Shown here piece after piece: positions 10,200-38,445 of a DNA stretch of 51,628 bases (the stretch's first letter is position 1; every line of letters starts with the position of its first letter). The position numbers and the translations under genes are program-made. Origin of the DNA: Candidatus Uhrbacteria bacterium (GTDB lineage: Bacteria > Patescibacteriota > Patescibacteriia > UBA9934 > GWF2-40-263). The DNA lies in NCBI GenBank assembly GCA_016188495.1, contig JACPHU010000005.1, forward strand, positions 1 through 51,628, written 5' to 3'. Below the pieces are notes generated by a model, which ran no database searches, was not told where the DNA came from, and worked only from the letters and a program-made list of their open reading frames with translations.

Positions 10200-10224
10200 A
10201 TATCTAGTGAATTTTGAGAGTTTT

Positions 10225-10233
10225 TGATACCAT
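10225..10233 (+). promoter_or_regulatory. Extended -10 promoter for the 10242 gene
   Basis: TGA plus TACCAT ends 8 nt before ATG 10242, with no SD and no clear -35. Probably leaderless. Confidence 0.55.
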
Positions 10234-10241
10234 TCCCGCAT

Positions 10242-20200: not shown

Positions 20201-23200
20201 CAAACAGGAGGCGACGGATTACGAAAGCGAATCGTTCCCTCTCTATTTTATTGCTTCAAGCGCCAGCAGCTGTTCGCAGCAGTACGTTGGCTGTGATTCA
20301 TTTACGAATTTAAATGCCGTCAGTGCCGGAGGCGAGGGGATCGAGTACTACACCTCTCTTCGTTCCTGCTTGAGTTCCTCTATTGCGGACGGTTCCAACT
20401 CGCAAAAGACTCCCGCGACATTTTTTACCTGGGAAGGCTCGGATAACGAAGGATACCAATTGCAAACATGGGTCTTGCTCGAATCTAACCTGAGTGCCAC
20501 CACAGGTGTGTTTACCCAGGATCCGTTTACGTCCGAATCATCTCCTGATCTTGCTCCTTGTACTCACATTCAGATGTTGGGTGAAAACGAGGTGACCTGC
20601 GATGATGGCAGTACGAATATGGCAGCAGACGTTTGGGGGAATGCGCAGTGCGATGAGCATGCCGATATTTTCGAAAATCCAGATTGCCGAGAGTTTTTCG
20701 ATACGCAAGGAAACATGCATTATCGTGAGTATACGCAGACGGTTTCCGTTTCTGACGACTGCAGTCCTTATCGAAAAGATGAAGGAAATGAGCTTGATTG
20801 CGGAGCTTCAGGCGGATACTGGACAGACCAAGGTTTTTGTCGCTACTACGCTCTGCCTGCAGAAAGTACGACCTGCCCAGCCGAACAAAATGGCTGTCGG
20901 GAATATACAGGTGGAACAGGCCGCAATGCGACCACGATCTTAGATGAAACGTTTGAAGGGGGAACGTATGAAGATTTTGTCATTGCTCAAACGGGAGATA
21001 TCCCAGAGGTTTCTATCAGCAATGAATCCGTTGCCACAGAAGGACATTCCTTGCGTGTGGAAGTGGCAACAGGAGACACAGCCGGAATCGATACGGTGCA
21101 AGTGTATTTGGGACCATCTAACACCAGTACGTACGACGAAGATGTCAGCACGACCTGTACCGGAGTGGTTGGTGAAACAGGTTGTGAAATTGAATACGAT
21201 GTGGACGGTGACGGATCTGCGGATGAAGCGTGTATCGTTTCAGACGGTGAAGAAAGCTGTGGAACGCTGACAAGCAGCCTTGTTTCCGGCAAAACGTTCG
21301 TTTTAGATTTTTGGGCGAAAGGCAATGGCAATCTCTTCGTGACCTTGGAAGAAGAAGGGGGCGACGGACAGACACGAGATTTTTCAAATCCGACAAAAAC
21401 CATTTCTAGCCCGAGCGATCTCACCCCTGTTGCGCTTGACGGGGCCTGGACACTTTATAGTTTAGGTCCTTTGGATACGAGTAGCTTTGAACAGTTTGAT
21501 GAAAATGCGGTCTTGCGCTTTAGCAGCACGGCTTCTTCTACGACCAGCGAGTTCTATATCGACAACATCACACTCAAGCAAGTTGAGGAAAATATCACTC
21601 TGATTAAAGATTCTTGGGTTGTTCCTTCTACATGCGATCAAACCCCTAGCGGAGCGGATTCTCCTCAATATTATTTAGGATGCGAAGCGTATACGGATCA
21701 GCACGGAACAGAGGCAACACTCTATCAATTTTCTGATATTTGTTCTGAAGAGGTTGTCGGATGTGAGGGATTCTTTGATACGGCAAATTCCGAGTCAACT
21801 TATCAGCAGATGTATAACGTCCGTTGCGTCTATTCTACGGATACAGATCTGATAGATAGCGAGACAGTGGCTTCTAATACCGCATGTAAAGTCAATGATA
21901 AAGAATACTGCACGATTTCAGCGGGTCTGGGCTACTGCACCTTTGATGCCACAGAAGTGTTTGAACAACCACTGCCGTTGGATAATCCTTCTTCCGGTTT
22001 GTATTTTGGAATCGTATACGGACCAGAAACCGTTGTGATTGAAGGCGATACGCCCGTGTATCTCGTCACAGACAGCCAGTTTGCCTGCACGTCTGAGGCG
22101 ATGGGATGCGAAGAAGTGGGGCTGCCTACCTATAATCAAGACCATTCAGCCGTTGAATCGTTTGAATCCAGTTATTACATCAATCTTCCAAGCGATTATG
22201 GAAACATTCTTTGCGATCACGAAGCGCTCTTTTGCGAAGAATGGTCCTCTACCAACAACGGAAATTTTTATTTCAAAGATCCTCAGGATAAAACCTGTGA
22301 GTATAAAACAACCGTGAGCATTGAAAACCGAAGTTATTTCGGATGGTTCAGAACGGGAACATCCGAGCCTTGCTATTGGGAAGATAAGGATGATTCCGGT
22401 GATTTCAATATTGATACGGATGAATCGTATCTGATTGCCGGCGAACAGTTCGGTATCTGGCGCAATGGGGATGAAGACGACGGGGACGACGATCTTTGGG
22501 ATTATTACGACGGCTGGGTTGCCGGCTGCGAGAGCAAGTATGATCTGTGTACGGAATTTATTGATGTCGTAGATACAGAGAGCGGAAGCAGTGCTTCCGG
22601 CGAATCGTATTATTTTACCAATGACGAACTCCTTGATGAGAGCAATCTCACCGACAGCCAGCGCTGCAACGGACAGATCAGCCAGAAGTTCGGATGCGCG
22701 CTGTTTAATAACTCCACCATCTCGGAATTAAGCTACAACGCGGGAGCCAGTTACGTTTCTTCTATCCATGCGGACATTTTGTACGGCCAAGAACAAAATA
22801 CCTTAGTAGACCCTATCAGCTGTGCACTGGAAGATGGGGGAGTGTTCACAATTTCTTCATCTGATGCTGAAATACTCGGCTTGGCGGTTGGGGACGTTGA
22901 GGTTGATTTGTGCGCGCGCCGCTGTGCGTATCAGGTCGATAGCGGAGATTCTATTGCCACCGGTTCTTCCGAGCTTGGAACGACAAGCACCACGTATTAT
23001 GAACGTTCCTGTTTGGCGGATTCGGATTGTCCTGTGTTAACCACTGTGTTGGGAGAAAGTGCGACAGGATCTTGCGGGGATGTCGCGAGCGATTACGCTC
23101 TTCAAGATGATTCGAATGAAATTTTGAAAGTCAACCGAGACCGTACCTGTTCCGCATGGCTGGCGTGCGAGAGTTCGCGTACGAGTTGGAATACCAGTAC

Positions 23201-26200
23201 GAACAAATACGATTTAGTGTGCGATTCGGTAAATTTGTGTACGGAAGGGTCCGTTCAAGGGGACCGTTCGGTGTGTACGCAATGGGATCAAAATGATCCC
23301 GCTATTTTATCCGCCTATACATATTCGACTCGCGATGTGAATTGGACAGGTTTCGAGTATTCTGGAAATGCGATTCCAAATCAGCTTCCGATTGAAATCT
23401 ACGACCAGTTTAATATTTCGCCTCAAGCGGTATGTGTTGATGCAAGCGGAAACAAGCAGACAAATGAAAACGATTTGCCGATAAGTTGCCGTACCTTTGA
23501 GGATTGCCCTCTTACTTCTGTAAGTTGTAATACAGATGCGGATTGCACATCTGCCAATTACGGCGCCTGCGATCAGGATACGAACACGTGTTATTTTACA
23601 TGCCAAACTTCCAGTGAAACGGATTATCGATTGGTCTATAATGCCGGTCCTTGCGATGCTCGCGAGTCAGGGTCTGGAAACGGAGGGCTCTGTTATGTGG
23701 GGCATTGTTCTGAAACGGGAGCCGCCTGCGCCACATCTGGAGATTGTGAGGACACGGAAGAGTGCGTGGTCGGATACTGTCAGGCAACCGCAGATACGAA
23801 TTGCGTGAATGAAAATTGTTCCTGCAATCCTGAACAGAACGAAACGGACGGAACCAATGCCGATTGCGCTGGTTCTACAGCAGGAACGTCTTCCGCTGCG
23901 GTGAGCACCCCTTTCTGCGATCCCGTCCAATTTATCTGCGTGAGCGAATTGACATCCGACGAAGCCAACCGCGATGCATGTCTGACAACGGCCCAATGCG
24001 GCACAAGCTCGACCCGATCCAGCTACGACTGCATTCCGTCTGATGCGTCCACCACAGGTTCCTGCTTCAACGACCGTTGTCTTTCAGACATTGTGGATGA
24101 AAACGGGGACCGTAAAGCGGACCGTCTTGTTGTTTCTGATGCCCGCGAAGAATCCTGCCGAGCCTATCCGGAAATCGATTCGCCATTTCCTTCCAGTGTG
24201 GTCAGTTCTTGGTTGCGTTATGACGGCCTGGATATTGAAGACGATGAAAAATCACCCACGTCCGTTTCTTCTCAGCCGGAATCATCGCCGAGCGTTCAAC
24301 GTTCATTCCCCTATAGTTATGTGAACGGATTTCAAGATTCGAATGTGTGCGGATTGGACGAGGATGGGAACGTGGTTGACTGCTTGTGCAGTTATGAGAA
24401 AGCAGAGTACGGAGAAGGATCCGGATATCGTTACTATGAGACTGGTACAGGCATCGAATCTGATGATATTCCCGACGGCATTTGTTCCGGAGGTCTTGTC
24501 GCAGGCATTCCTTGCAAGAATGATGCAGATTGTACGTCCGAAGATAAAATTGGTTCATGTTCGTATCTTTCCCGTCTGGATACATTTTATGGATGGGCGG
24601 GATATTGTATCGAACGAGACACATCCATACAGACGTTGGGATCTTCCGCACAGGAAGATCAGGCCTGCTTAAGCTGGCTTCCTGTGGATCAGTTGACCGG
24701 CGCAACGGATTTGTACGCAAAATATACCTCTGCCGGATATTCTCCCCAAAACACCTATTACTGCGCTGAAGTTAATTTGACGTATGATATTAGGACAACA
24801 GGCATCGGTTGCGCAGAAGTGCAAGACAATAATTGTAATAACGATGGAACGTGGGGTGCGTTTAAAGACGAGGCTGATAACAGCGATAGCGGACAAGACG
24901 ACTGCGTCGCCGCCGTCTGGTGTCCGGACGGATATTTTGCGGTCATGACCGGTTGCGGAGATCAGAGCTTTGATGAAATGTGCTTAGAAACTTGGGGAGA
25001 CAATGACTGTCCGTTTTTCTGCGTGCCAAAATATTCATATAAATCATCGGGAGAACCCTGTCTTGCCCCGACTATTTATAGTTATCATCTTCAAATCGAT
25101 GACGTTGGAGATCATTGGTCTAGTCCAAAACCGGATACCTATGTGTATGTGTTACAACCGAACGATTTCGGAACAGCGAAAGATTTTTACCTGGATTGTG
25201 CGGTAAAAGGAGTTGTGGATGGTAGCGGAGGACATATCGCTGAATATTACACGCCACGAGATAATTTTGGCGCGGTCCTGCCTACCGACGGTGGCAGCAC
25301 GAATGGATATCGGGATCTGGGATTCAACTATCAGCCTTATGCCGCATGTACTTCCGTTGTGCAAGTTTCCACTAAAACGTTAGAAGAAGGAAACGATACG
25401 AACCTTCCGTTTGATACGTATAATGCGGCTTGGACAAATCGCTTATGGAAAGATAATCCCACGTTTGAACCGTTACCCGATCCTTTCGCAGACCAGACCC
25501 ACTTCGGGTATCAGTATCCGACATTACTGTCTCCGTACGGAGCCGCTTTGGATTATCTGCAAAAAAGATTGGATCTTGACCCGTATCCGCATCCGCTTGT
25601 GATGTGCGAATCTGATAGGTTGGATCAGACGGTTCCCGCCGTTGATCTTTCCTGTCCTGCCGGTTACGACTCTGTGACGAGTGATCTGGGAGAGGAAGCT
25701 CGCGCGTACCAAACGGTTGCTGTGACCAACACGACCGAAAATACGTCAATTTACTGCGTGAATGACGATTGTTCGTGTAGCGGAGGAGACAGTGCATTAT
25801 GCAATTACGATGCGTCTATCGGAGCCACGATTTCTTGCGGCAATGCCGCCTGCGCGTACGGAAGCTGTTCAAAAGGCGGAGCCATCTGTTATTTCCAAGA
25901 CACAAACAGCGACGGATATGATGATGTGTGCGGAAAAGATGACGGTCCTTGTAATCGTGTGGCTTGTTATTTTCAGGACACCGATGAAAACGGAGCCGAT
26001 GACATTTGCGGGCCTTCGTCACTAGGGTCTTGCATCGGCTGGTGTATCGGAGGTCCCTATAACGGGCAGCAATGCGGAACAAGCACAGGAGCTGTGTGTG
26101 AACCTAACTATTGCAAGGGAACAACCAAGCAGCATGGGCGCGGCAATAGCAGTACGTCATACGAATGCACACCTAATAGTCAGGCAACAACGTATGCTTT

Positions 26201-27191
26201 TTCTGCAACGAACACGGTCGCTGATGTGGTCGCTCGATTAGGCGGGGTTTTTGGACGCATGTACAAGCTTATTCTGTATGATGATGGATACGCGGGCATT
26301 TCAGATGTCCAGTCTAATGATCTGAATTTTAATCAAACATTTGGCAGCTTTGACGATACACTTTCTCTGGCCGATCTTGAGACATACGGATTGGGCGATT
26401 GGATATGGGATCGTCGAGGAGATAGGGAAGATCCTGAAACGTATGTTCCAAAGATTTTTTCCGTTGGCGAGTGCGAAGGATCAGAATGTTATGAATCCAC
26501 AGAAGGAGCGTTTACGGTTAACGAAGTCGACAGCGGTATCATTCAGGGCGAAGGTTCCAAACGCACGACCGTGAATTTTTTCGCTTCCGCAGACTCCGAA
26601 CAAATGCCTATCCGTCGAGTCGTGGTCGATTGGGGGGATGATTTCGCTGGTATTACAGGGGATATGCCTTGGCCAACAGGCAGTTATAGCGGATCGATTG
26701 CCCGGGATAACTTCTATAAGAATCATCGCGGATTAAACCCGATTTCCAATACGGAGGAATGTTCAGCAACAGCCACTGAATTCGGCGATAGTCCAGAAGC
26801 GTGCAGTTCCAGCTATTTTTCCTTTACCCATGACTACACCTGCACCGCAGGTCGTTTGCAGGATCTCCAATCCGCTTCCGATCGCGAATGTTCGTTTGAT
26901 GAAAACGGTCGTCTCTTGAATTCTCCTTGCTACGACGGAAACTACTGCGTCTTCCAACCCCGCGTCCACGTGATGGACAACTGGGGATGGTGCACCGGAT
27001 TCTGCGATTCCGGCGCTGATGAGACAGAGGGATGTTTTACGGGAGAGTTACCAAATGGTTCAACCCAAGACGAATGCGACATCGAATCCTGTCCTTCTGG
27101 TGGAGATTCAGAGAGTTGTGAAGATTCTTTTGGTGGCACAACCAATCCTTGGGTTAACTTTGATGGTTCTGTTTATATCCTTGCGGAATAA
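17220..27191 (+). CDS. Giant Cys-rich surface protein (3,323 aa)
   Basis: The N-terminus has a basic stretch and a hydrophobic signal (TVFVLSLIMFGFFIP) with a probable cleavage near VFAVDAEG. Residues ~40-450 are helical. From ~500 the protein is acidic, Thr/Ser-rich and full of Cys: a C-x4-6-GC motif recurs at about 621, 724, 950, 1018, 1216, 1484-1500, 1619 and 1814. Two carbohydrate-binding-like beta modules begin at ~748 (NPSFEDDTDEDGFPDYW) and ~1241 (DETFEGGTYEDF). EGF/knottin-like Cys clusters (CNTDADC, CKNDADC, CSCNPEQN) lie at ~2100-2450, and a PKD-like domain (RRVVVDWGDDF ... YSCT-type close, HVMDNWGW) at ~3117-3290. No sortase signal or C-terminal TM was seen. Likely exported and disulfide-rich; adhesion or host contact is inferred. 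A second in-frame ATG lies at 17223. Confidence 0.8.
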   Translation: MMQILRKTKRYLSAGLTTVFVLSLIMFGFFIPQKSVFAVDAEGILSSNRASAAAARAACLKTGAVPSTCPPEGIENSLQVVGDKIISPAFRIALIQALLNLSQFVLNRLAYEAAVAIASGGPGEESLFYQQTPVEAFKQLGLEAAGEAIGTISELSSTKLGIEFNLCQPNNSPLQLALAVGIKQKYKPTKPKCDILEIGKNWSGLFTNFYQTISDPDALQKAVLTKFAESLKPGKNELSATLRVNIAIDQKVHEQKLLQFLQQNQNQYKSVTDFITGNVKTPSQTLQGEFESKLKEVNGDQSKIKVGELVNSGELIGGLALSTASTFTNTLLSQLMNRIYTGLFESEPIPDPFDVEGVGGSDRESAQERFASIIATHPIATAEYNALSEFVVCTAEGVTNRGLYNCVMDVNFLAAVSRGNSGSALTVQEAIDEGLLDGNKPLISPENEPANQDPYCYTYGYCYGNLVKLRKARVLPIGWELAALRNSETTPATLQEVIDGFNHCTEDGTIGPSNSVNSDTKWCHLIDPNWVLKYPETQCRAIVSGEIRLSTLSPGRSSVCVDAPSCIGENNEGVCTDGYGYCVQEKNVWRFRGDECPAEYASCLSFQNTQTGDPGDFLVNTVDYSVCDQNNAGCQWYRTNKYLDDAGTSDDTSDDTYVWLPEGEAYITMDVDSTTSDHDDDLNYQTTSGGSVSPATYTYTSDSGNTYTYTSYTYQDRLYLTHNAQTCADSDAGCTKLFEFDEDLVLNAVQNPSFEDDTDEDGFPDYWVKTVTGGSSEKRVEDGAAVGSSLFQTDSSSFYQYVPLQANNFYTLSFYAKTVSTSAGSTTLSLSLEDKNGSVVSIAGTSYQGDCSPVSNTYSIVLNPASTSQFTSGEWSRFDCTFTAPSNTVQANISVDSDALFLDGIQLELGEDVHSFAEGYSSTPVAAYYKMAPDYLGCSGSSNDPSECDNYTQACQAQDVGCNLYTPEDGDPSIPAIISELDQCPSECVGYTTYKQEATDYESESFPLYFIASSASSCSQQYVGCDSFTNLNAVSAGGEGIEYYTSLRSCLSSSIADGSNSQKTPATFFTWEGSDNEGYQLQTWVLLESNLSATTGVFTQDPFTSESSPDLAPCTHIQMLGENEVTCDDGSTNMAADVWGNAQCDEHADIFENPDCREFFDTQGNMHYREYTQTVSVSDDCSPYRKDEGNELDCGASGGYWTDQGFCRYYALPAESTTCPAEQNGCREYTGGTGRNATTILDETFEGGTYEDFVIAQTGDIPEVSISNESVATEGHSLRVEVATGDTAGIDTVQVYLGPSNTSTYDEDVSTTCTGVVGETGCEIEYDVDGDGSADEACIVSDGEESCGTLTSSLVSGKTFVLDFWAKGNGNLFVTLEEEGGDGQTRDFSNPTKTISSPSDLTPVALDGAWTLYSLGPLDTSSFEQFDENAVLRFSSTASSTTSEFYIDNITLKQVEENITLIKDSWVVPSTCDQTPSGADSPQYYLGCEAYTDQHGTEATLYQFSDICSEEVVGCEGFFDTANSESTYQQMYNVRCVYSTDTDLIDSETVASNTACKVNDKEYCTISAGLGYCTFDATEVFEQPLPLDNPSSGLYFGIVYGPETVVIEGDTPVYLVTDSQFACTSEAMGCEEVGLPTYNQDHSAVESFESSYYINLPSDYGNILCDHEALFCEEWSSTNNGNFYFKDPQDKTCEYKTTVSIENRSYFGWFRTGTSEPCYWEDKDDSGDFNIDTDESYLIAGEQFGIWRNGDEDDGDDDLWDYYDGWVAGCESKYDLCTEFIDVVDTESGSSASGESYYFTNDELLDESNLTDSQRCNGQISQKFGCALFNNSTISELSYNAGASYVSSIHADILYGQEQNTLVDPISCALEDGGVFTISSSDAEILGLAVGDVEVDLCARRCAYQVDSGDSIATGSSELGTTSTTYYERSCLADSDCPVLTTVLGESATGSCGDVASDYALQDDSNEILKVNRDRTCSAWLACESSRTSWNTSTNKYDLVCDSVNLCTEGSVQGDRSVCTQWDQNDPAILSAYTYSTRDVNWTGFEYSGNAIPNQLPIEIYDQFNISPQAVCVDASGNKQTNENDLPISCRTFEDCPLTSVSCNTDADCTSANYGACDQDTNTCYFTCQTSSETDYRLVYNAGPCDARESGSGNGGLCYVGHCSETGAACATSGDCEDTEECVVGYCQATADTNCVNENCSCNPEQNETDGTNADCAGSTAGTSSAAVSTPFCDPVQFICVSELTSDEANRDACLTTAQCGTSSTRSSYDCIPSDASTTGSCFNDRCLSDIVDENGDRKADRLVVSDAREESCRAYPEIDSPFPSSVVSSWLRYDGLDIEDDEKSPTSVSSQPESSPSVQRSFPYSYVNGFQDSNVCGLDEDGNVVDCLCSYEKAEYGEGSGYRYYETGTGIESDDIPDGICSGGLVAGIPCKNDADCTSEDKIGSCSYLSRLDTFYGWAGYCIERDTSIQTLGSSAQEDQACLSWLPVDQLTGATDLYAKYTSAGYSPQNTYYCAEVNLTYDIRTTGIGCAEVQDNNCNNDGTWGAFKDEADNSDSGQDDCVAAVWCPDGYFAVMTGCGDQSFDEMCLETWGDNDCPFFCVPKYSYKSSGEPCLAPTIYSYHLQIDDVGDHWSSPKPDTYVYVLQPNDFGTAKDFYLDCAVKGVVDGSGGHIAEYYTPRDNFGAVLPTDGGSTNGYRDLGFNYQPYAACTSVVQVSTKTLEEGNDTNLPFDTYNAAWTNRLWKDNPTFEPLPDPFADQTHFGYQYPTLLSPYGAALDYLQKRLDLDPYPHPLVMCESDRLDQTVPAVDLSCPAGYDSVTSDLGEEARAYQTVAVTNTTENTSIYCVNDDCSCSGGDSALCNYDASIGATISCGNAACAYGSCSKGGAICYFQDTNSDGYDDVCGKDDGPCNRVACYFQDTDENGADDICGPSSLGSCIGWCIGGPYNGQQCGTSTGAVCEPNYCKGTTKQHGRGNSSTSYECTPNSQATTYAFSATNTVADVVARLGGVFGRMYKLILYDDGYAGISDVQSNDLNFNQTFGSFDDTLSLADLETYGLGDWIWDRRGDREDPETYVPKIFSVGECEGSECYESTEGAFTVNEVDSGIIQGEGSKRTTVNFFASADSEQMPIRRVVVDWGDDFAGITGDMPWPTGSYSGSIARDNFYKNHRGLNPISNTEECSATATEFGDSPEACSSSYFSFTHDYTCTAGRLQDLQSASDRECSFDENGRLLNSPCYDGNYCVFQPRVHVMDNWGWCTGFCDSGADETEGCFTGELPNGSTQDECDIESCPSGGDSESCEDSFGGTTNPWVNFDGSVYILAE

Positions 27192-28211: not shown

Positions 28212-29129
28212 ATGTATCAGAAAGCGTTCATACTTTTGGCTTTTTTTCTTTTTCTTCCGCGACCCGCTTTTGCTGTGTGTGACGAACCCACCTCCGTGGT
28301 CCAGCTGATTCAGGCCAGTCGCCTGGCAGAGGAAGCATTTGCGAACCTTGACGCCGATGCACTGCTTACCCAGTCGAGTCTTGCCCGCAGCCAGATCTTA
28401 CCCTGCGTGCAGGAGATCATCAGCAAACGTAATGCTGCCGCGTTTCATCGCCTGATGGCGTTGGAGGCGTTTATCAATGGCAATGAATCGCGTGTGGTGA
28501 GCGAACTTCACGCCGCCCTCATCCTTGAGCCTGGCTATCTGTTTCCAGAAAAGGTCGCCGGTGCAGGACATCCTCTTCTGGCTCTTTACAAGAGAGCGGA
28601 AACGTTAGACGACGGCGTGGCTGAACGAACATATCCTCCGGCAAACGGCTATATGATGGTGGGAGGGGTTCGCAATGCGGCACGCTCTTCCAAGATTCCT
28701 GTCATCATCCAGGCGTTTGGTCCTCATGGGGAACTTTTGGAAACGCGCTATGTCCAACCAGGAGAAGCTTCTCCCAACTGGAGTGGTAACGTGTTTGGTC
28801 TCACGGCGGAAGATTTAGGAATCAAACATCCATTGCTGGATGCCCGTCCTTGGTATGTGGCGGGGGCTGTGACTCTGCTGGCTTCCGGCGTGCTCTACGG
28901 CATCGCCTTAAACCAGAAGCATCAGTATCTGGACCCAGCTACGTCTGACGATCAGCGTCCCGGACTTGAAAGTCGCGCGAACGGTTTTGGAACCGCATCC
29001 GCCATCACAGGAGCTTCGGGGATTCTTTTTAGCGGTTTTGGTATCGGATTCCAATTCAAGTTCGGACTTCGTGATACGAACAGTAGCAAGAAACTTTTTT
29101 CTCCTCAGAAGGAGTCTGACCATGAATGA
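28212..29129 (+). CDS. Exported protein with two C-terminal hydrophobic segments
   Basis: 305 residues. A clear signal peptide (KAFILLAFFLFLPRPAFA, cut before VCDEP) is followed by a helical, TPR-like region (ASRLAEEAFANLDADALL ... HAALILEPGYLFPEK, ~25-125), a beta stretch (NGYMMVGGVRNAARSSKIP), and two hydrophobic segments near 217-238 and 265-285. AGGAGG lies 4 nt before ATG 28212, which decides the start. It overlaps the kinase gene by 8 nt, so the two are translationally coupled; a sensor or partner role outside the membrane is inferred. No family recognised. Confidence 0.7.
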   Translation: MYQKAFILLAFFLFLPRPAFAVCDEPTSVVQLIQASRLAEEAFANLDADALLTQSSLARSQILPCVQEIISKRNAAAFHRLMALEAFINGNESRVVSELHAALILEPGYLFPEKVAGAGHPLLALYKRAETLDDGVAERTYPPANGYMMVGGVRNAARSSKIPVIIQAFGPHGELLETRYVQPGEASPNWSGNVFGLTAEDLGIKHPLLDARPWYVAGAVTLLASGVLYGIALNQKHQYLDPATSDDQRPGLESRANGFGTASAITGASGILFSGFGIGFQFKFGLRDTNSSKKLFSPQKESDHE

Positions 29130-30888
29130 CGCGGATGCGGCAATTCTCCTGCGCGTGCGAAAGATACTGGCGCCTCTGAAACTGTATACCGTGGAAGAGG
29201 TTCTGGGATCAGGGATGATGGGCTCTGTCGTTTTAGTGAACCACAAGGTCTTTGGCAAGCGGGCGATCAAGCTCGTGTCTCAAGGGTTCTCGAGTTCTCC
29301 TACGCTGAGGATTCGCTTTGAAAACGAAGCGAAAATCATGAACCAACTCAATAACCCCCATGTGGTAAACGTGTACGACATGGGTGAAGTTGGCGAGTTT
29401 CCTGATGATCACCCTTATATCATCATGGAGTATATGCCCGGCGGTTGCCTTGCGGATCATCTGGATGAATTCGGTGCGATGCCTTGTCGCCAAGCCGTAC
29501 ATGTGACGATCGCGATCTTGAAGGGGCTTCAAGCCGCGCACGACCAAGGGATTGTTCATCGGGACGTCAAGCCGCAGAACATCCTCTTTGATCTCAATGG
29601 GAATGTGAAGGTGGCCGACTTTGGGATCGCAAGGGTTGGCGCAGATCTTAAGCGACTAACCAACGACGGAAACGCCATCGGCACCATGTCGTATATGTCC
29701 TTTGAACAATTGGACGGGGCACCAGACATTGACGGTCGTGCGGATCAGTATGCAGTTGGCGTGACACTGTTTCAGATGGTCGCGAATATGGATTTGGAGT
29801 TCGAACCTTTTTTTTCGCAGGTCGCCCGAAAACCGCATTGGTGGGATCCTGTTCCAGACGTTCTGAAAGCCATTATCAAAAAAGCGACCTCTATCGCTCC
29901 TGAACAACGCTTTGAGTCCGCAAACGTCATGGTTCAAGCCTTGGAGGCGTGTCTTACACAACTCCCCGAGGATTCGATCGTCACTCAAGCATTGGGAAGC
30001 GCTCCTGCTCACAGGAAGATGTTGAAAAAACTTCCCCCTGATTTTGACGGGACTCTCAGTTACGATGGAGAACCTGTTTTCGGATGGGACGATCCTTATA
30101 TCTTTCCTGGGGATGATCAGAATCTTGCTCGAGAACTCGACTCGGATTCGCTCCCTTTCGCAGAGGAGGTTTGGGAGTATCATCCTCCCAACGATAGTCC
30201 TCACACTGAGAATGAATTCTTACAACCGATCGTTGAAGAAATGGTTGAAGAGGTTCAGGTCCCGCAACCGGTTATTGAAACCCTGTCATCCGTGACGAGG
30301 AAGCATCGTTTGGTCTGGATTGTCTCCATCATCTTGGTTTGCACCATTCTGATTACCATCGCAAGCCTTTGGTTTGGAAGGCGTTCTGAACATGAAAGCA
30401 TTTCTGCTGGTTCAGCGGTTTCTAAGCCGAATGTTCCGTTGACAGGGGAGGAGGCAGCAGACACGACCGTTCCCATCCCTAACGAAATTCCGGTCGTGAT
30501 CGCGCCGTCTGTTTCTCAAACCACCCCGATCCCTTCTTTGGTGAAGAAACCTAAACCAACGAAGACAAGAGAGAGTGGTCACACAGCCGCAGAATCTGCG
30601 GCCGTGCAGATGGTTCCCGAAATTCCTCAACCAGAAGTGGTCCTTCCTGAGTCTCAGGTACGAGTCATCCTCAAACCTGACACCACTACGGCCAAGGTCA
30701 CGCTTTCGGGCGAGAAAGGAACGTTTGTCGTCACCGGTGGCATTCTCAATCTTCCGCAGGGAACGTATCAGGTGACGGTTGAGCTCCCAGAACGCTCAGA
30801 ACCCCAAACAGGATCTCTGGTCGTGGGTTCGGGTACGACAACCATCACCTGCGACGCAAGATTCAAAATGTGTAAAGGGTTGAAGTGA
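29122..30888 (+). CDS. Transmembrane Hanks-type Ser/Thr protein kinase with PEGA-like domain
   Basis: 588 residues from ATG 29122, chosen for the AAGGAG SD 8-9 nt upstream. Kinase domain ~21-285: glycine loop GSGMMGSV (29-36), AIK with Lys50, Glu69, HRDVKPQN (146-153) and DFG (166-168), so catalytically complete. The activation-segment end is GTMSYMSFEQ, where most bacterial kinases have PEQ; the Pro is replaced by Phe. An acidic linker, one TM (~396-416), a Pro/Thr-rich stalk and a C-terminal beta domain (~512-588, VRVILKPDTTTAKVTL ... LPQGTYQVTVELP) resembling PEGA repeats, placed outside, follow. Probably senses an envelope signal with the exported neighbour. Confidence 0.9.
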   Translation: MNDADAAILLRVRKILAPLKLYTVEEVLGSGMMGSVVLVNHKVFGKRAIKLVSQGFSSSPTLRIRFENEAKIMNQLNNPHVVNVYDMGEVGEFPDDHPYIIMEYMPGGCLADHLDEFGAMPCRQAVHVTIAILKGLQAAHDQGIVHRDVKPQNILFDLNGNVKVADFGIARVGADLKRLTNDGNAIGTMSYMSFEQLDGAPDIDGRADQYAVGVTLFQMVANMDLEFEPFFSQVARKPHWWDPVPDVLKAIIKKATSIAPEQRFESANVMVQALEACLTQLPEDSIVTQALGSAPAHRKMLKKLPPDFDGTLSYDGEPVFGWDDPYIFPGDDQNLARELDSDSLPFAEEVWEYHPPNDSPHTENEFLQPIVEEMVEEVQVPQPVIETLSSVTRKHRLVWIVSIILVCTILITIASLWFGRRSEHESISAGSAVSKPNVPLTGEEAADTTVPIPNEIPVVIAPSVSQTTPIPSLVKKPKPTKTRESGHTAAESAAVQMVPEIPQPEVVLPESQVRVILKPDTTTAKVTLSGEKGTFVVTGGILNLPQGTYQVTVELPERSEPQTGSLVVGSGTTTITCDARFKMCKGLK

Positions 30889-30956: not shown

Positions 30957-30985
30957 TCCCCCATATTCTTCCCTCTGTTTTCTCT

Positions 30986-32143
30986 ATGCCTACCTCCACC
31001 CTGTGCACTAACCTGCGTACCTCCCTTGAGACCATCCGTGCTCTCAAAACGGACTTTGACGCAGCCTATGAAGCAGCAATCTCTTCCGGTACCCCTGCTG
31101 AGATACAAAAAGCTCAAGATCTCAAACAAGCTCTTGAAACACGTACCCGAGAACTTCAACAAGAAGTGAATGTTCTCGAAACAGAGCGCGTCTATGACCT
31201 AAGAGCCCAGTATGAGAGCCAAGTGACGTTACTCAAGCGTACAGGACTGATTGAAACAAGAATCTTTATAGAGACTGGGGAAGAAACAGAGGAGTTTTTC
31301 ATGAGAGATCTTCACGAGCATGATTACCCAGTTCCATCTTACGAAACGATCGTAGAGCATCTGGTAGAACGGAAGGAATTCCTTGCAAGCAAAGCCGACC
31401 AAGGGTTCACGAAGTTCCTTCTGGTTCCCTTTGGGATGAGTCTGGACCAGATGATTCAGAGATTCAGAGCGTTTCTGTTGGACTATAAGAAAGACCATCC
31501 AGAGTTTGGTCGTCATGACCCTGCAAAAAGAGATGATTCAGACAAGCCGGACTGGGATCCTATATGGGTGTGGGAGGGGTATGATAACGCAGATGTAAAA
31601 GGCACTTTGGTGTATGATCCTCAGTCTTTTGACGAGGAAGATCATAATGGTCTCACCAAGACAGAGATTCTTGAAAGGCAGAAGACCGATCAAGACCCAA
31701 TGTTTGGATGGCGTTTCTTGTTCTTGCAAGCAGGCAGGGATGGGAACGGATTCAAGGTGATTCCAAGAAATGGTCAAGGTGAGACCCAAGGTGAACAAGT
31801 TCCGCGTGGAGATTTAGAAGCAGGAAAGAGTTCAAAGGAGTACTTGGCAGACCAGCTTCGCACCTCCCAAGACCCCACCTCCCCTTATTATGGTGAGTCT
31901 GGGATGGCTCCTGAGGAGTGGATGGTGATGTTTATGAGCTATCTACAGGAAACAGGGAGACCTTTGGATAACTACCAAAACGATACAGATTCTATTGTTT
32001 TCCTCACAGGGACTTATTTTATTGCTTCTGGCAATGTCCCGTACGCGTGCTGGTACCGTGGCATTCGGCAGGTCGACTTGGGCGGGAACGGTCCGGGCGA
32101 TGTTAGCGAGTACACCAGTGCGCGTGGTGCGGTGAGGGGATAG
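30986..32143 (+). CDS. Hypervariable-tail protein A (DGR-target-like)
   Basis: 385 residues, no signal peptide. Residues ~1-90 are a helical coiled coil (LETIRALKTDFDAAYEAA, ALETRTRELQQEVNVLE). The middle carries DQGFTKFLLVPFGMSLDQMIQRF and DPMFGWRFLFLQAG, then SGMAPEEWMVMFMSYLQETGR. The last ~35 residues (VPYACWYRGIRQVDLGG ... AVRG) look like a DGR variable region. It is a close paralogue of the minus-strand gene at 37249-38403, with the tails far more different than the bodies. ATG 30986 is chosen because the paralogue begins with the same MPTSTLCTNL. Function unknown; the tail probably binds a variable ligand. Confidence 0.8.
   Translation: MPTSTLCTNLRTSLETIRALKTDFDAAYEAAISSGTPAEIQKAQDLKQALETRTRELQQEVNVLETERVYDLRAQYESQVTLLKRTGLIETRIFIETGEETEEFFMRDLHEHDYPVPSYETIVEHLVERKEFLASKADQGFTKFLLVPFGMSLDQMIQRFRAFLLDYKKDHPEFGRHDPAKRDDSDKPDWDPIWVWEGYDNADVKGTLVYDPQSFDEEDHNGLTKTEILERQKTDQDPMFGWRFLFLQAGRDGNGFKVIPRNGQGETQGEQVPRGDLEAGKSSKEYLADQLRTSQDPTSPYYGESGMAPEEWMVMFMSYLQETGRPLDNYQNDTDSIVFLTGTYFIASGNVPYACWYRGIRQVDLGGNGPGDVSEYTSARGAVRG
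32036..32140 (+). other. Candidate DGR variable region A
   Basis: From GTC-CCG to the stop. Compared with copy B (37252-37356), 22 of the 28 codons after GTC-CCG differ, 13 of these only in the first two bases, while TGG, CAG-GTC, TTG, GGG and CGT are constant. The region is very GC-rich, as expected when template adenines are replaced. Confidence 0.65.
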
Positions 32144-32177
32144 TCTTGGTTTTTATCTTTTTATTTCCTACTTTGTT

Positions 32178-34850
32178 ATGAAAAAGTCTCCAGAAGGATT
32201 TGTACCACCTATTGAAACCACAGACGTTCATGATGTACCTCGTGCAACAAGCGTTGTTGAGCGTTCTCATGAAGCTGCTCTTTTGGGTGAAAGCTTTGAG
32301 GATGCGTCTGCGGCGCTTGAACAAGTGGAAAGAGTGATCGATGTGCGCAAACAATTGCACGCACGCAGATTTCCAACTTTTTACCAGGTATTTGAGGACA
32401 TCGACGCGATTCATCGCTCGCCATTTTCTCAATCGGAAAAGGAGGAGGAGATGGTTCGCCTCCTTGATGCCGCGCAGGAAAGAACCAGTAAATTTTCTCC
32501 CCGCGTGGCTGATTTATATTCAGCCGTTCTTTGCGATTTGCGGGGCCAAACCTACCAGCCGATCTTTGAAGAGAACGAAAAGAAACTTATTGATTTGAAA
32601 GAATCGGGAGATTTGGATGTTCTGACTTCATCAACACAACCGTGGGAAGTGAAACTCAATCGGCTCGATACGCGCCTTGAAGGATATCTTGCTGGACGTC
32701 GCGCTTTGGACAAACGGGAGGGTAATCTGATGGATGACGATACGAGGGCTATGCGTCAGGAAAAGTTGAAGAACGCTTCCAATCGTGTTCCTGGCCGAAG
32801 AAATGAAAGCAAACCAGGAATGGATGAGATGGAACGCCTTAAGGAAGGTGAACGCGCTCCTGCTCTTTGGAGTATTTTTCCTGCCTATGGAGGATACTAT
32901 CGCGAACAATCGTTATCTGTATGGGATGCCAGCCGCAATACCTGGGTAGAACCTTCCTATGAATACAGCAACGTGACGTTTGTTCCGATTTGTAAAGAAG
33001 AAGACCCAAAAAAAGGACTTATAAATTTTACGATGCGTCCTTCCATGGAGGCAAACCAGTGGGTCAGTATCCCAGTGCCGTACACTCACGGTCTTTCAGG
33101 GATCGAATGCAAACAGCCATATATCGTACAACAAGATCAAAACGGTGACGTCGTGCTTTTTGTGGAAGGTGAAGGGAAGGTTGATGTAGTCATAAAACTT
33201 TCGCCTGTCTCAGATAAAGCCTATGGACCTTTTGATCGAAAGTCGGTTGAAGTGCCAAGCATGCCTGCCGAGTTTTCTCAAGAGACCCTGCAGGAGATTG
33301 AACGCGTAAGGGCAAGTAAAAAAAGCCCTCTTGCGAAAGCAAAGATGCTTGCCTCCTATACAAAGCGACATTTACAATATTCAAATAACAGCTCGTTTAA
33401 CACGATTTACGATTCCGATCCAAAAGGATATTTTCACGCTATTGATACGCACAAAAAAGCCGATTGCGACGTGGCCAATACCTATTTTGCCGCGTTATGC
33501 GCGCAGCTTGATATTCCTGTGCGCCATGTGGTGGGCCACAGCGTCAAAGGAAAAAATGAGAAAGGCGTTTCGCAGATTACTTCTGGAACAGGCCATGCCT
33601 GGAGCGAAGTTTGGGATAAAACAGCAGGCCGATGGGTGAAAATTCTGTGGGAACGTGTGGATGCAACTCCTGCGGGCGATCCCAATCTTGAAGAGGGGCA
33701 GCAGAAAAGTCCGAGTCAACAAGTCCCTGGCGACTACGGCACACAAGAGGCGCAAAGCATTACCGACGAGCAGCTGGAGGCGCTGCGAAAAAAATTAACC
33801 CAACGCAAAGAACAGTTGAGTTATACCAAGGAAGAGCGTCAGCTGGCCGAAGCCTCGGGAGTAGAACTCAAAGAAGCCCGTCAAATCGTGAAGGAGATTG
33901 CTGCGGCTGAAGACACTCGTCTTCCAAATGGGAAGCGGGTCGTCGATGTTCTTTCTCGTTTGTTCAATGCTATTGTGGAATCTCGCAAGATGGCTGTTGA
34001 AGCGTATGACGGCCCTGTACGTAAGAGCGAGGGCGGCGAAGGGATTCAAGACATCGTTCGTCATAAAATCGGCGTTGTATCTGGTGACAGCGATCCAGCT
34101 TCAAGGGAAAAAATCCAGATGGATGAAGCAATCGAAATCAGTTTTGGAGGAATGGATGTCATTTTTATCGGAGATAAATCGGGCAGTATGAGTTCAACAG
34201 CCAATGAAGAAGTGTTGTGGGCGATGCAACGACGAGCGCAGTACCTCCTGTTTTCTGCTCTGCATCGTTTTGATCGAGCGCTCCAGCAGGCTGGAATTCC
34301 AAGCGATGAATCATTGTCTGTCAGAACCCAAGGACTTTCTTTCCGAGGCTCGCAAGAGGGCGAGCTTGATGAAGATAAGCCGCTTTCCGGAATATTTTCA
34401 CCTAAAGATAAGGTAAAGCTCTGGCACAGCATGGGAAATCAGGGTTCTGGAAATGGAGACGTTGAAGCTCTTAAGCATATTTACCAACAGATCAAAGAAG
34501 AACAGGTATTAGAAGACAAACAAACAAAGAGCAAAAAACGATTACGCCTTATTGTCGCGTGTTCAGATGGGGGACCAGACGATCCAGTACAAGTGCAGCA
34601 ATATGCCGAAGCACTTGGGCAACTTGGTGCGGTTGTGGTTGGAGTTGGGCTTACAGATAAAGCTCTTGCCGTGCCTGAAATTTATAACACGTCTTATAGC
34701 CGGGGAGATATTGCCCGCGACATTAATGATCTACCTGCGATCGTTGCCAAGCATCTGGTCGCTGAGGCCATTCGTCTTTTTCCTGATCGTGCAAGAGAAA
34801 GTGCGAGAGCACTCATCGAGAGTGTGATTGCTGAATTCAAACGTGTTTGA
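32178..34850 (+). CDS. Transglutaminase-like/VWA fusion protein
   Basis: 890 residues, no signal or TM. The N-terminal ~200 residues are helical; a beta region (~220-370) follows. Then comes a transglutaminase-like domain with Cys430 in KADCDVANTYFAALC, His473 in GTGHAWSEVW and an Asp downstream (D479 or D495), the Cys-His-Asp order of the family (protease or transglutaminase). After a charged linker, a von Willebrand A domain begins at ~660 with the MIDAS motif DKSGSMS (Asp666) and ends in VACSDGGPDD (~796). VWA proteins paired with MoxR ATPases serve as metal-dependent adaptors in chaperone-like assemblies. The MoxR-like gene follows after 27 nt. Fusion of both domains in one chain is unusual. 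Confidence 0.82.
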   Translation: MKKSPEGFVPPIETTDVHDVPRATSVVERSHEAALLGESFEDASAALEQVERVIDVRKQLHARRFPTFYQVFEDIDAIHRSPFSQSEKEEEMVRLLDAAQERTSKFSPRVADLYSAVLCDLRGQTYQPIFEENEKKLIDLKESGDLDVLTSSTQPWEVKLNRLDTRLEGYLAGRRALDKREGNLMDDDTRAMRQEKLKNASNRVPGRRNESKPGMDEMERLKEGERAPALWSIFPAYGGYYREQSLSVWDASRNTWVEPSYEYSNVTFVPICKEEDPKKGLINFTMRPSMEANQWVSIPVPYTHGLSGIECKQPYIVQQDQNGDVVLFVEGEGKVDVVIKLSPVSDKAYGPFDRKSVEVPSMPAEFSQETLQEIERVRASKKSPLAKAKMLASYTKRHLQYSNNSSFNTIYDSDPKGYFHAIDTHKKADCDVANTYFAALCAQLDIPVRHVVGHSVKGKNEKGVSQITSGTGHAWSEVWDKTAGRWVKILWERVDATPAGDPNLEEGQQKSPSQQVPGDYGTQEAQSITDEQLEALRKKLTQRKEQLSYTKEERQLAEASGVELKEARQIVKEIAAAEDTRLPNGKRVVDVLSRLFNAIVESRKMAVEAYDGPVRKSEGGEGIQDIVRHKIGVVSGDSDPASREKIQMDEAIEISFGGMDVIFIGDKSGSMSSTANEEVLWAMQRRAQYLLFSALHRFDRALQQAGIPSDESLSVRTQGLSFRGSQEGELDEDKPLSGIFSPKDKVKLWHSMGNQGSGNGDVEALKHIYQQIKEEQVLEDKQTKSKKRLRLIVACSDGGPDDPVQVQQYAEALGQLGAVVVGVGLTDKALAVPEIYNTSYSRGDIARDINDLPAIVAKHLVAEAIRLFPDRARESARALIESVIAEFKRV

Positions 34851-34877
34851 TATCGTTTAAGTGAATAAAAACATCAT

Positions 34878-37175
34878 ATGTTGAAGGAAAGATTTCAAAA
34901 TAATGAGTCAAGTGCAGAAACGGAAAAAAGAGCCTCGGGTATTTTGAGGTACGTTGAAAAAACAATTCTTGGTAGCGAAAATCTTCAAACGGATAGGGAA
35001 TTAGAAGAAGAGATTCGGGCCGATTATCACTCACGTACCCCTCGAGAAAAAGCTGATATTTTGTATGAAAAAGTGATGGCCTACGTCACAGACAAAAAAA
35101 CGCACGCTGCCGAGCTTCGAAAGGGGAAAGGAGAGAATCAACCGTTTGTCCTAAGTGATGATTTGAAAGCGGAAATAAAAGTGCTTCTTGAAGATCAGTC
35201 CACGAGAGACCTTTTTTCAAAAACGTATGCGCAGGCCAGGGTGGATGCAAAATCATACCGTCTGTCTGATTTGGGACAAACATGGAACCACCTGAATGAG
35301 CAAATCGAGAAGCTAGAGAATGAATTTCAACAGACGGAACAAGCGCTCTTTTTGAAAACGATTGAAGGGAAATCTAATGTTTCTTCTGCAAGGTCAAAAG
35401 CGGAGCGGTTGGCTAAACGTTTGCTTACTCTTAAAGGACAACGCGAAGATTTAAAGATGGTGAATTTGGAAAATGTGTTTCACACTCCTGAAAATACGGA
35501 TGTGGCTGCAATGTTTCAATTTGAAACCGTCACCGAGTATGCGGATCAATTGAAAAATGGATTTGTCTGGCTGCCAAGCAGGGAAAGAATCCATACAGAT
35601 ACCGTAGCGGCTTTGCAAAATGGACGTTGGCCAGTATTGGTCGGAGAAGCAGGAACAGGAAAGTCTGACCAGGCTGATGCGGCTGCTTTAGAACTAACAG
35701 GTAGCCTTCCAACGGAAGTGGAATGTGAGGCGACCACTGGTGAAAAGCAATTGGTGATGGATGTCGCGATCGATAGCCAAACAGGCGGAAGCTACCAGGA
35801 GTATGGACCACTCATGAAGGCCTTTACCGGATTTGACGATTCGCGCCAGACCAAACCTTCTTCCTCAAAAGGAAGAATTGCGCGGTTTGATGAATCCGGA
35901 CGTCTGGGCTCAAAGGCCTACAGTGTCATTAAAAAGGCTCGACAAAAAGGGTCGGGAGACGATTTTTATGGCCGTCCTGTTTTGCCAGGTGCAGCCGCTA
36001 TTTGGACGACAAATCCAACGGGAACGCGTTATCCTGATCGCCATCCGGTAGATCCTGCCATGCGCCGCGAAATCGCTGAGATCTATGTTGATTATCCAGA
36101 ACAATCAGCAGAAAATCCTGAACAATATGAGTTTATGCTCGGTGCTCTTTTGGATGAGAATCGTCATATTCCAGGCGTGGCAGAAACAGAATTGGCTCCG
36201 GCTTATACAAAACAGGAATTTGCAGAAGATCAAAAGTACAAGCTTCCTGACGGCCGTACGGTGGTCGCAAAAGATGTATTGATTGAAGACGCGTCAGACA
36301 AGAAACACGGGACGCTTTGGCGTTTGGCCAACGCCGTAAAGGCACTGCAGAATAGTTTTATTTATGGAAACCATTTTCCTGAAAAAATTCCCTCCGATGC
36401 TTTGTTTATCGATGATGATAATAGTGAAATTAAAACTGACGGTACTGGTAGTTTATTAATCTTATCTACCTCTACCATTACGCTTGGTGAAGTGAAAAGT
36501 TGGATGCAAGGATTCAGGGACCGACTACAAAAACAAAACGAGGCGTTTCAAGTTGAAACGTTTTCAGAATGGATTAAGTTAAAGATCGACATCTATCTCA
36601 AACAGGTAGATCAAGCGGATCGGGCGAAGATTAAGGCGATTTTTGAGCACTTCCACCTTTTGGACGCTCCGCCGGACGTGGAGCGTGAAAAACCTCTTAC
36701 TCCAAAACAAATCGGTTATCTCTCACCTCGCGTACCACGACCTCTTCATGTCGAAGCGCCAGTAGCTGAAGTAAAACCACCAGATGAACCAAAAGAGGGC
36801 GAAAAAAAACCAGAACTTTATACGACCGTCGAGGTAGCGCTTGAGGATGGTAGCAATATCCGTATTCGTAAAGGGGATACGGCTTTTGATACGAAGGTTA
36901 CCAAGGGGTTGGGTGTTGTAGCCCGTAAGGCGAACTCTTTTGTTCCTGGGAGCGGGCACGCCCCCTCCAAACAAACGCGGTTTCTTGTCAACGGCCGTGA
37001 GTATGTGTTTTCCGGAATGCTTGAAGATGGCAGCAAGCCGGTCGGTTCTCTTTTTGAAGAGCCCGATCTCCATACGATTTTTACCCCAGAGGAAGTCGAA
37101 CAAGGAATCATTCAGTATTCCTTTCAAAAATTAGAAAAAGACGTGGAAGCATTTTGTACAATGACAAGCACCTAA
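34878..37175 (+). CDS. MoxR-like AAA+ ATPase
   Basis: 765 residues. The N-terminal ~190 residues are helical and charged. The AAA+ module has Walker A GEAGTGKS (~256-263), a Walker-B-like ARFDES (~335; shorter than the usual hydrophobic run before DE), sensor 1 in AAIWTTNPTG and a probable arginine finger in VDPAMRREIAEIYVDYP. This order is typical of the MoxR branch. A C-terminal beta domain (~650-750, VEVALEDGSNIRIRKGD ... RFLVNGREYVFSGML) is not recognised. It works by inference with the VWA partner encoded upstream, remodelling or loading metal into a client; the flanking DGR-like proteins are candidate clients. Confidence 0.82.
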   Translation: MLKERFQNNESSAETEKRASGILRYVEKTILGSENLQTDRELEEEIRADYHSRTPREKADILYEKVMAYVTDKKTHAAELRKGKGENQPFVLSDDLKAEIKVLLEDQSTRDLFSKTYAQARVDAKSYRLSDLGQTWNHLNEQIEKLENEFQQTEQALFLKTIEGKSNVSSARSKAERLAKRLLTLKGQREDLKMVNLENVFHTPENTDVAAMFQFETVTEYADQLKNGFVWLPSRERIHTDTVAALQNGRWPVLVGEAGTGKSDQADAAALELTGSLPTEVECEATTGEKQLVMDVAIDSQTGGSYQEYGPLMKAFTGFDDSRQTKPSSSKGRIARFDESGRLGSKAYSVIKKARQKGSGDDFYGRPVLPGAAAIWTTNPTGTRYPDRHPVDPAMRREIAEIYVDYPEQSAENPEQYEFMLGALLDENRHIPGVAETELAPAYTKQEFAEDQKYKLPDGRTVVAKDVLIEDASDKKHGTLWRLANAVKALQNSFIYGNHFPEKIPSDALFIDDDNSEIKTDGTGSLLILSTSTITLGEVKSWMQGFRDRLQKQNEAFQVETFSEWIKLKIDIYLKQVDQADRAKIKAIFEHFHLLDAPPDVEREKPLTPKQIGYLSPRVPRPLHVEAPVAEVKPPDEPKEGEKKPELYTTVEVALEDGSNIRIRKGDTAFDTKVTKGLGVVARKANSFVPGSGHAPSKQTRFLVNGREYVFSGMLEDGSKPVGSLFEEPDLHTIFTPEEVEQGIIQYSFQKLEKDVEAFCTMTST

Positions 37176-37178
37176 TAA

Positions 37179-37223
37179 GAAAACAAAAAGAACTGTGAAA
37201 TTTTCACAGTTCTTTTTGTTTTC
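37179..37223. terminator. Bidirectional terminator (perfect 22-bp palindrome)
   Basis: Positions 37179-37200 pair perfectly with 37202-37223 around a single T. Both strands carry T-rich outer arms, so it can end the plus-strand ATPase gene and the minus-strand gene whose stop is at 37249. Confidence 0.9.
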
Positions 37224-37248
37224 TGTCCCAATCGATCAAAACCCAACC

Positions 37249-38403
37249 CTAACCCCTCACCACTACACGGAGACCCATGATCTTATCTTCAACGAAGGGA
37301 ACGAGCCCGTTCAAGGCGACCTGCGAAAAGAACTGATCCCATCCACTGGACGGGACGCTACTATAAGATTTTAAATAAACCCCTGTGAGGGAAGCAACGG
37401 ATTCTGTATTCTTTCGGAAATTATCCATGGGTCTTCCTGTTTCCTGTAAATGACTCATGAACATCACCATCCACTCCTCTGGAGTCATTCCAGACTCACC
37501 GTAGTAGGCAGAGGTGGGGTCTTGGGAGGTGCGAAGCTGGTCTTCCAAGTATTTTTTTGGACTCTTGCCCGTTTCTAGATCTGTACGTGGGAGCTGTTCG
37601 CCTTGGATCTCTCCCTTGCCTTGCCTTGGAATCTCCTTGAATCCTGTCCCGTCCTTGCCTGCTTGCAGGAACAAGAGACGCCATCCAAGTGTTGGGTCTT
37701 GGTCGGTCTTCTGCCTTTTAAGAATCTGTGTCTTGGTGACTCCACCATGGTTTGCGTCAAAAGATTTTGGGTCATAGATCAGAGTCCCATTCACGTCCGT
37801 TCCTATATATACATTATTCAACATCGACAGAGGATCCCAGGATGATTGGTCTGACATTGTTAGAGAATCAACACGATCGAACTCTGGATGATCTTTCTTG
37901 TAATCTAAAAGAAAGACTCTAAATCTCTGAATCATCTGGCCCAGACTCATTCCAAAGGGAACCAGAAGAAACTTGCCGAAGCCTTGGTCGGCTTTGGTGA
38001 AGAGAAATTCTTTTTGTTCTGCCAGACGCTCTACGATCGTTTCGTAGGATGGAACAGGGCATTCATTACCATGGATATCCTTCATGAAGGAGACTTCTGT
38101 TTCCTTTCCCATCTCATCTAATTCTATCTTTGTTTCAATCAGTCCTGTGCGCTTGAGTGACATCACTTGGCTCTCATACTGAGCTCTTAGATCATAGAGA
38201 TGCTCTGCTTCGAGAACATTCACTTCTTGCTGAAGCTTTTGGGCACGTGTTTCAAGAGCGTGTTTGAGATCTTGGGCTTTTTGTATCTCAGCAGGAGTAC
38301 CGGAAGACATGGCTGTTTCATAGGCTGCGTCAAAGTCCGTTTTGAGAGCACGAATGGTCTCAAGGGAAGATTTAAGGTTGGTGCACAGGGTGGAGGTGGG
38401 CAT
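37249..38403 (-). CDS. Hypervariable-tail protein B (DGR-target-like)
   Basis: 384 residues, inverted paralogue of protein A. The coiled-coil start (MPTSTLCTNLKSSLETIRALK), the KADQGFGKFLLVPFGMSL core and the SGMTPEEWMVMFMSHLQETGR block are conserved. The region ~175-205 and the last ~35 residues (VPSSGWDQFFSQVALNG ... VVVRG) diverge. The ending SQVALNG...GLRVVVRG fits the common ending of CPR DGR targets. ATG 38403 is chosen by alignment with A. It is divergent from serS with 42 nt between starts and converges on the MoxR-like gene through a shared palindromic terminator. Function unknown. Confidence 0.8.
   Translation of the reverse strand: MPTSTLCTNLKSSLETIRALKTDFDAAYETAMSSGTPAEIQKAQDLKHALETRAQKLQQEVNVLEAEHLYDLRAQYESQVMSLKRTGLIETKIELDEMGKETEVSFMKDIHGNECPVPSYETIVERLAEQKEFLFTKADQGFGKFLLVPFGMSLGQMIQRFRVFLLDYKKDHPEFDRVDSLTMSDQSSWDPLSMLNNVYIGTDVNGTLIYDPKSFDANHGGVTKTQILKRQKTDQDPTLGWRLLFLQAGKDGTGFKEIPRQGKGEIQGEQLPRTDLETGKSPKKYLEDQLRTSQDPTSAYYGESGMTPEEWMVMFMSHLQETGRPMDNFRKNTESVASLTGVYLKSYSSVPSSGWDQFFSQVALNGLVPFVEDKIMGLRVVVRG
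37252..37356 (-). other. Candidate DGR variable region B
   Basis: The counterpart of 32036-32140. Constant codons (TGG, CAG-GTC, TTG, GGG, CGT, final GTG-AGG) frame variable ones; third bases are kept in most differing codons, as expected if both derive from a template rich in AAC/AAT/AAG. Confidence 0.65.
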
Positions 38404-38445
38404 AATCTTCCCAATTTTAACACAATCGTGCATGATAGGGCTTAT

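Follow-up and report, generated by a model that had tools for sequence, protein, structure and literature searches.

Inverted paralogues of a Candidatus Uhrbacteria genome are probable DGR targets whose cassette is lost or unassembled

The genes studied here lie in the window, by which we mean the whole stretch of 51,628 nucleotides that was analyzed (Candidatus Uhrbacteria bacterium, contig JACPHU010000005.1, positions 1 to 51,628). Two paralogues, A and B, stand there in opposite orientations, and the operon between them comprises a transglutaminase/VWA-like gene and a MoxR-like AAA gene. The features of this locus, in coordinates of the window, are as follows.

28966-30888, plus strand: Ser/Thr protein kinase upstream of A, a neighbor by position
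30985-31259, plus strand: outer arm of the inverted repeat formed by A and B (89% to its mate at 38130-38404)
30986-32143, plus strand: A, an A-family DGR-type target protein of 385 aa with long helices at the N terminus and the variable region at the C terminus
32033-32140, plus strand: variable region of A, aligned without gaps to the template repeat (TR) of an Uhrbacteria relative
32178-34850, plus strand: protein with a transglutaminase core (Pfam PF01841, 1.5e-12) and, toward its C terminus, a DxSGSM/VWA-like sequence recognized by motif only
34878-37175, plus strand: MoxR/dynein-type AAA ATPase (AAA_5, 1.7e-6), its place in the order kept in relatives G051 and G180
37249-38403, minus strand: B, the paralogue of A in inverted orientation, 384 aa
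37252-37356, minus strand: variable region of B
38130-38404, minus strand: mate of the repeat arm at 30985-31259

The original prediction had described A and B as similar paralogues in inverted orientation, and the placement and lengths listed above bear this out. The proteins are 69% identical overall and about 75% identical across the first 320 residues. A third paralogue, C (G000:C21:41546-42703), is encoded on another contig of the same genome. In all three proteins, the variable region is the C-terminal end (the last ~35 codons), and tails of this type are confined to A, B, and C within the genome. Pfam, PHROGs, NCBIfam, and PADLOC provided no family assignment for A or B. The structure models are confident (pLDDT of 94.7 and 91.7); they have no match in the PDB or among the viral structures of BFVD at E ≤ 0.05, and the C-type lectin fold, a known DGR scaffold, was not recovered from them. 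The suggestion that constant codons of the tails form the frame of a lectin fold was thus not confirmed, Pfam likewise giving no match. In the protein encoded at 32178-34850, a DKSGSM motif is visible and Pfam VWA gave no match; the Pfam scan of the A/B locus detected no VMAP family. The gap after A, from its stop at 32143 to the next gene start at 32178, carries no reverse transcriptase (RT); this slot is the RT position in G180.

The differences between A and B are distributed over codon positions in one way in the tails and in another in the gene bodies. At positions 1, 2, and 3, they number 14, 18, and 11 in the last 33 codons, versus 53, 45, and 101 in the 337 codons of the body. Positions 1 and 2 together differ at 32/66 sites of the tail versus 98/674 of the body (Fisher p = 9.7e-10). 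The pattern is imperfect, as the third position differs at 11 of the last 33 codons, which is the body rate (101/337; p = 0.69). Among all segments of 34 codons, the tail ranks first for the sum of differences at positions 1 and 2 minus those at position 3 (23, versus 11 for the best segment that lies wholly earlier). Differing codons had earlier been counted as 22 of 28, with the third base kept in 13; our recount over codons 358-385 of A gives 21 of 28 and 13 of 21, respectively. Over the tail, the third base is kept in 14/25 differing codons, compared to 49/150 in the body (p = 0.023). The codon pattern is therefore genuine. The tail of C has drifted further, and even codons described as constant are altered in it (TGG to TCG, GTC to ATT, and GGG to CAA).

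A DGR RT makes errors at adenines as it copies the template RNA, and the 3' end of the target is replaced. The DGR reading of the tails came with a test named beforehand, namely, a template that matches both tails together with a DGR RT, lack of the template counting against the reading, and both are absent from the genome's own assembly, all of which was scanned (1.19 Mb, 29 contigs, 96% complete). RVT_1 is missing from it, tblastn with the RTs of 29 relatives yielded no credible match to a DGR RT, and the best tblastn match to Avd had an E value of 0.12. In masked scans of the window and the assembly for a template, only A and B themselves reach the full score, followed by C (38/56) and then by background at 33/56 and lower; a pattern search and a tail profile also revealed no template in the window or the genome. 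The tail profile produced a 16.8-bit match, located in transposase-like sequence where contig C27 (L109) ends, which we attribute to chance. Given the relatives and the incomplete assembly, the missing template and RT can be explained as a loss or a gap, and at 96% completeness in 29 contigs these two look alike.

The part of the DGR reading that stands comes from the relatives, in which homologous tails differ from an adjacent template at adenines only. A-family proteins occur in 8 of the 145 genomes searched (including the genome studied here) and RVT_1 occurs in 72 of the 145. Candidatus Uhrbacteria bacterium GW2011_GWE2_46_68 (G017; LCMS01..., a 1.1-Mb genome) has about 45 A-family targets per one template (loci L064-L073 and L175-L206). 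The template (L064:14507-14621) adjoins the RT, and an Avd-like reading frame lies on the opposite strand. Four A-family tails of this genome show no mismatch to the template among its 77 non-adenines but 13 to 17 among its 25 adenines (16 and 17 in two of these closest tails). Some 40 more paralogues form a ladder of rising non-adenine divergence from the template, from fresh to old, which we take as the trace of earlier rounds of rewriting. On contig C15 of G291, an RT in two frames, a bAvd gene (Pfam, 7.7e-11), and a TR all lie between two inverted A-family tails, and mismatches between tails and TR fall exclusively at adenines (22/22 and 19/19). The A-B differences favor the adenine columns of these templates, although the effect is modest: 16/25 versus 28/77 elsewhere for the Uhrbacteria TR (p = 0.014) and 18/30 versus 28/78 elsewhere for the G291 TR (p = 0.020). 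We infer from these relatives that change in the tails of A and B was directed to adenines.

Inverted pairs of targets recur in other relatives. Contig C31 of G180 has, in order, a tail, an RT (RVT_1, 6e-18), a transglutaminase/VWA-like gene, an AAA gene, and an inverted tail, which is the order of the window plus the RT; the homologues are 46% (transglutaminase) and 32% (AAA) identical to those of the window. Despite the RT, self-comparison of this contig revealed no TR. In G051, whose genome lacks an RT, an operon homologous to that of the window (74% and 69%) lies between inverted tails, and in G112 the inverted pair encloses a different large gene. G002, of the same genus, retains the operon beside a remnant of A (L276:8062-8712, 217 aa) that covers the N-terminal region only. 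It is conceivable that recombination between the enclosing targets inverts the operon. Contigs at L079, L275, and L289 start and finish inside an inverted target pair, which indicates that such pairs break assemblies.

The age of the tails can be judged from their third positions. Over 37 to 38 codons, the differences within inverted pairs at positions 1/2/3 are 4/11/1 in G180, 8/5/1 in G291, 9/11/1 in G112, and 8/9/2 in G051, compared to 15/20/13 for A and B. The third-base rule is thus nearly pure in the relatives and blurred by ordinary drift in A and B. Rates above that of the body at the first and second positions suggest that at least one of the two tails was rewritten after the duplication, and the body rate at the third position suggests no recent rewriting of both from a shared template. 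As the third positions have drifted like the gene bodies, rewriting of the tails would be old.

The window contains a second DGR-type target that is unrelated to the A family.

10224-12455, plus strand: second DGR-type target protein, 743 aa
12321-12452, plus strand: variable region of the 743-aa protein, compared to the template of relative G054

Mismatches between this variable region and the G054 template fall at 18/37 adenines and at 8/95 other bases, and the genome itself contains no template for this target. With A, B, and C, the genome therefore has DGR targets of two or more kinds and no visible machine.

We conclude, with a probability of roughly 0.88, that A, B, and C are DGR targets whose cassette is lost or unassembled, that the rewriting is old and the tails are now fixed, and that the proteins are probably variable sensors. 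The lack of an RT, Avd, and template, combined with the drifted third bases, points to targets by descent that are either stranded or served by an unassembled cassette. In the relatives, as read from the comparison of templates with targets, a template repeat is reverse transcribed with adenine errors and then copied into the 3' ends of A-family genes, and such errors alter the first two bases of AAY-type codons. Inverted target pairs of relatives enclose this operon, the RT cassette, or the two together; here, the cassette would be lost or unassembled and the tails of A and B fixed. The A-type variable tail may bind a ligand and signal via the transglutaminase/VWA-like protein and the AAA ATPase, and we infer that A-type proteins probably act as variable sensors with this AAA/VWA-like pair, in line with the proposal made for MoxR-vWA ternary systems with DGR sensors (PMC7159879, PMC10907252).

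A lesser but real possibility is that an intact, working DGR lies in the unassembled part of the genome and that A and B have simply not been rewritten recently. The assembly is 96% complete in its 29 contigs, assemblies break at inverted pairs (the G051, G291, and G180 contigs end within them), and RTs occur in half of the relatives. The few non-adenine departures of the second variable region from the G054 template (8/95) also suggest fairly recent activity. However, the A-B locus is fully assembled and its G180-type RT slot is empty, and the third positions of the A and B tails have drifted as in the bodies. It is improbable that no DGR was involved and that positive selection or relaxed constraint acted on a binding surface while third positions followed the neutral clock. 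Diversifying selection would likewise yield the observed nonsynonymous excess over background third positions, in a genome that has no template or RT, but the same rule holds in the homologous tails of relatives, two of which have templates with adenine-only mismatches, and the A-B differences lean toward the adenine columns of those templates. Although paralogues are available for gene conversion or domain shuffling without a template (A, B, and C here and about 45 in the Uhrbacteria relative), this origin is very improbable, as swapped blocks should differ at every codon position, whereas the 37- to 38-codon tails of relatives differ at 13 to 20 first and second positions and just 1 to 2 third positions, and no donor block for the A and B tails was found in the genome.

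DGR targets by descent thus remain our preferred reading of A, B, and C, and it can be set against known systems. CPR genomes are rich in DGRs, the targets of which have no recognized domains (Roux et al. 2021, PMC8144416). Our system resembles the cellular Patescibacteria/CPR DGRs (clade 2, PMC8144416) in the C-terminal variable regions, in targets that lack recognized domains, and in that close relatives have an RT, an Avd, and a template with adenine-specific mismatches. It differs in that the genome itself lacks an RT, TR, and Avd, in that an inverted target pair encloses the transglutaminase/VWA-like and AAA operon, in the ~45 targets per template of one relative, and in an RT clade with slippery tracts, considered below. 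MoxR-vWA ternary conflict systems with DGR-diversified sensors have been proposed (Kaur et al. 2020, PMC7159879; Dore et al. 2024, PMC10907252), with a transglutaminase-like peptidase as a rare VMAP option (PMC7159879), and the 2024 study found the CPR DGRs of clade 5F to be free of conflict-system domains (PMC10907252). As in those systems, DGR targets here adjoin a MoxR-like AAA ATPase and a protein with a VWA-like motif. In contrast to them, there is no VMAP match, the variable region is on a separate small protein without vWA fusion, and the host is a CPR bacterium. Because VMAP was not found and VWA is recognized by motif only, we do not class the A/B locus as a VMAP/MoxR-vWA system. In the literature found, DGR targets arranged as an inverted pair around a transglutaminase/VWA-like and MoxR operon are a context not tied to the DGRs of small-genome Patescibacteria. 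More generally, the raw codon pattern can expose DGR targets even when the machinery is missing, and third-position drift provides a measure of the time since a target was rewritten. The DGR reading of the original prediction appears to be right for the descent of the tails.

The RTs of relatives have a further feature. In several of them, the RVT_1 match is split into two frames at one shared place, where either poly-G or a GA/CT repeat directly precedes motif 4 (G-x-PIGN-x-TSQ).

L064 (about 15490-15510), L082, L155-L159, L161-L163, and L237-L262: RT loci of relatives with tracts

Pattern scans at motif 4 detected at least eight G in 8/381 genomes and (GA)5 in 12/381, compared to 0 for a reversed-pattern control. 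The frame is broken at 15 of these 20 tract loci and kept at the other 5. Split or broken RVT_1 matches without a tract (in G039, G061, and G057) were ascribed to ordinary damage and excluded from these loci. In an independent sample chosen by motif 4 only, 25 tract-free RTs are open through motif 4 (24 by the automatic rule; the remaining one, L304, has 281 open codons upstream), and 4/5 tract-bearing RTs are broken. Tracts of this kind are rare at least in the genome studied here, which contains neither a G or C run of nine or longer nor any (GA/TC)5. In a tree built from the C-terminal halves of the RTs, almost all of those with tracts belong to a single PIGN clade, in which the two tract types are intermixed. 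The RTs of the A family (Uhrbacteria, G180, and G291) form their own deep branch on that tree, and it likewise includes both types.

Targets of the templates beside out-of-frame RTs depart from those templates exclusively, or almost exclusively, at adenines, and hence the RT acted recently even though it is off in the assembled consensus. Such recent activity is explained by reversible slippage; programmed frameshifting is a possible alternative for poly-G and less so for dinucleotide repeats. Both in-frame and out-of-frame tract RTs occur among homologues, the state of affairs looked for in a phase-variable gene. We therefore consider it fairly likely that the DGRs that diversify the A family are phase variable, such that tract slippage in replication would switch hypermutation on and off and a lineage could hold on to useful tails and resume mutagenesis later. 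Phase-variable contingency loci of Campylobacter and Neisseria (PMC8437040, PMC5320596) are similar in that the tracts are inside coding sequence and mostly out of frame, and in that the tract type is interchangeable, as it is in these RTs; the difference is that the tract here sits in a DGR reverse transcriptase. We found no earlier report of a tract in a DGR RT in the open-access literature searched. If the tracts are real contingency loci, targeted hypermutation can itself be switched, and this would explain how a good receptor could be kept by a cell.

Two other proteins of the window were noted in passing. By visual comparison, the C terminus (FLAVGRGGSLFTCEVYPCHNDVWPCGGGFAFLAPSQ) of a 188-aa protein (7344-7910) is similar to the tail of the second, 743-aa target, and this may be a further variable protein. 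A 3323-aa protein, encoded at 17220-27191 in this genome of 1.2 Mb, has a signal-like hydrophobic start and is rich in Cys, Asp, and Ser.
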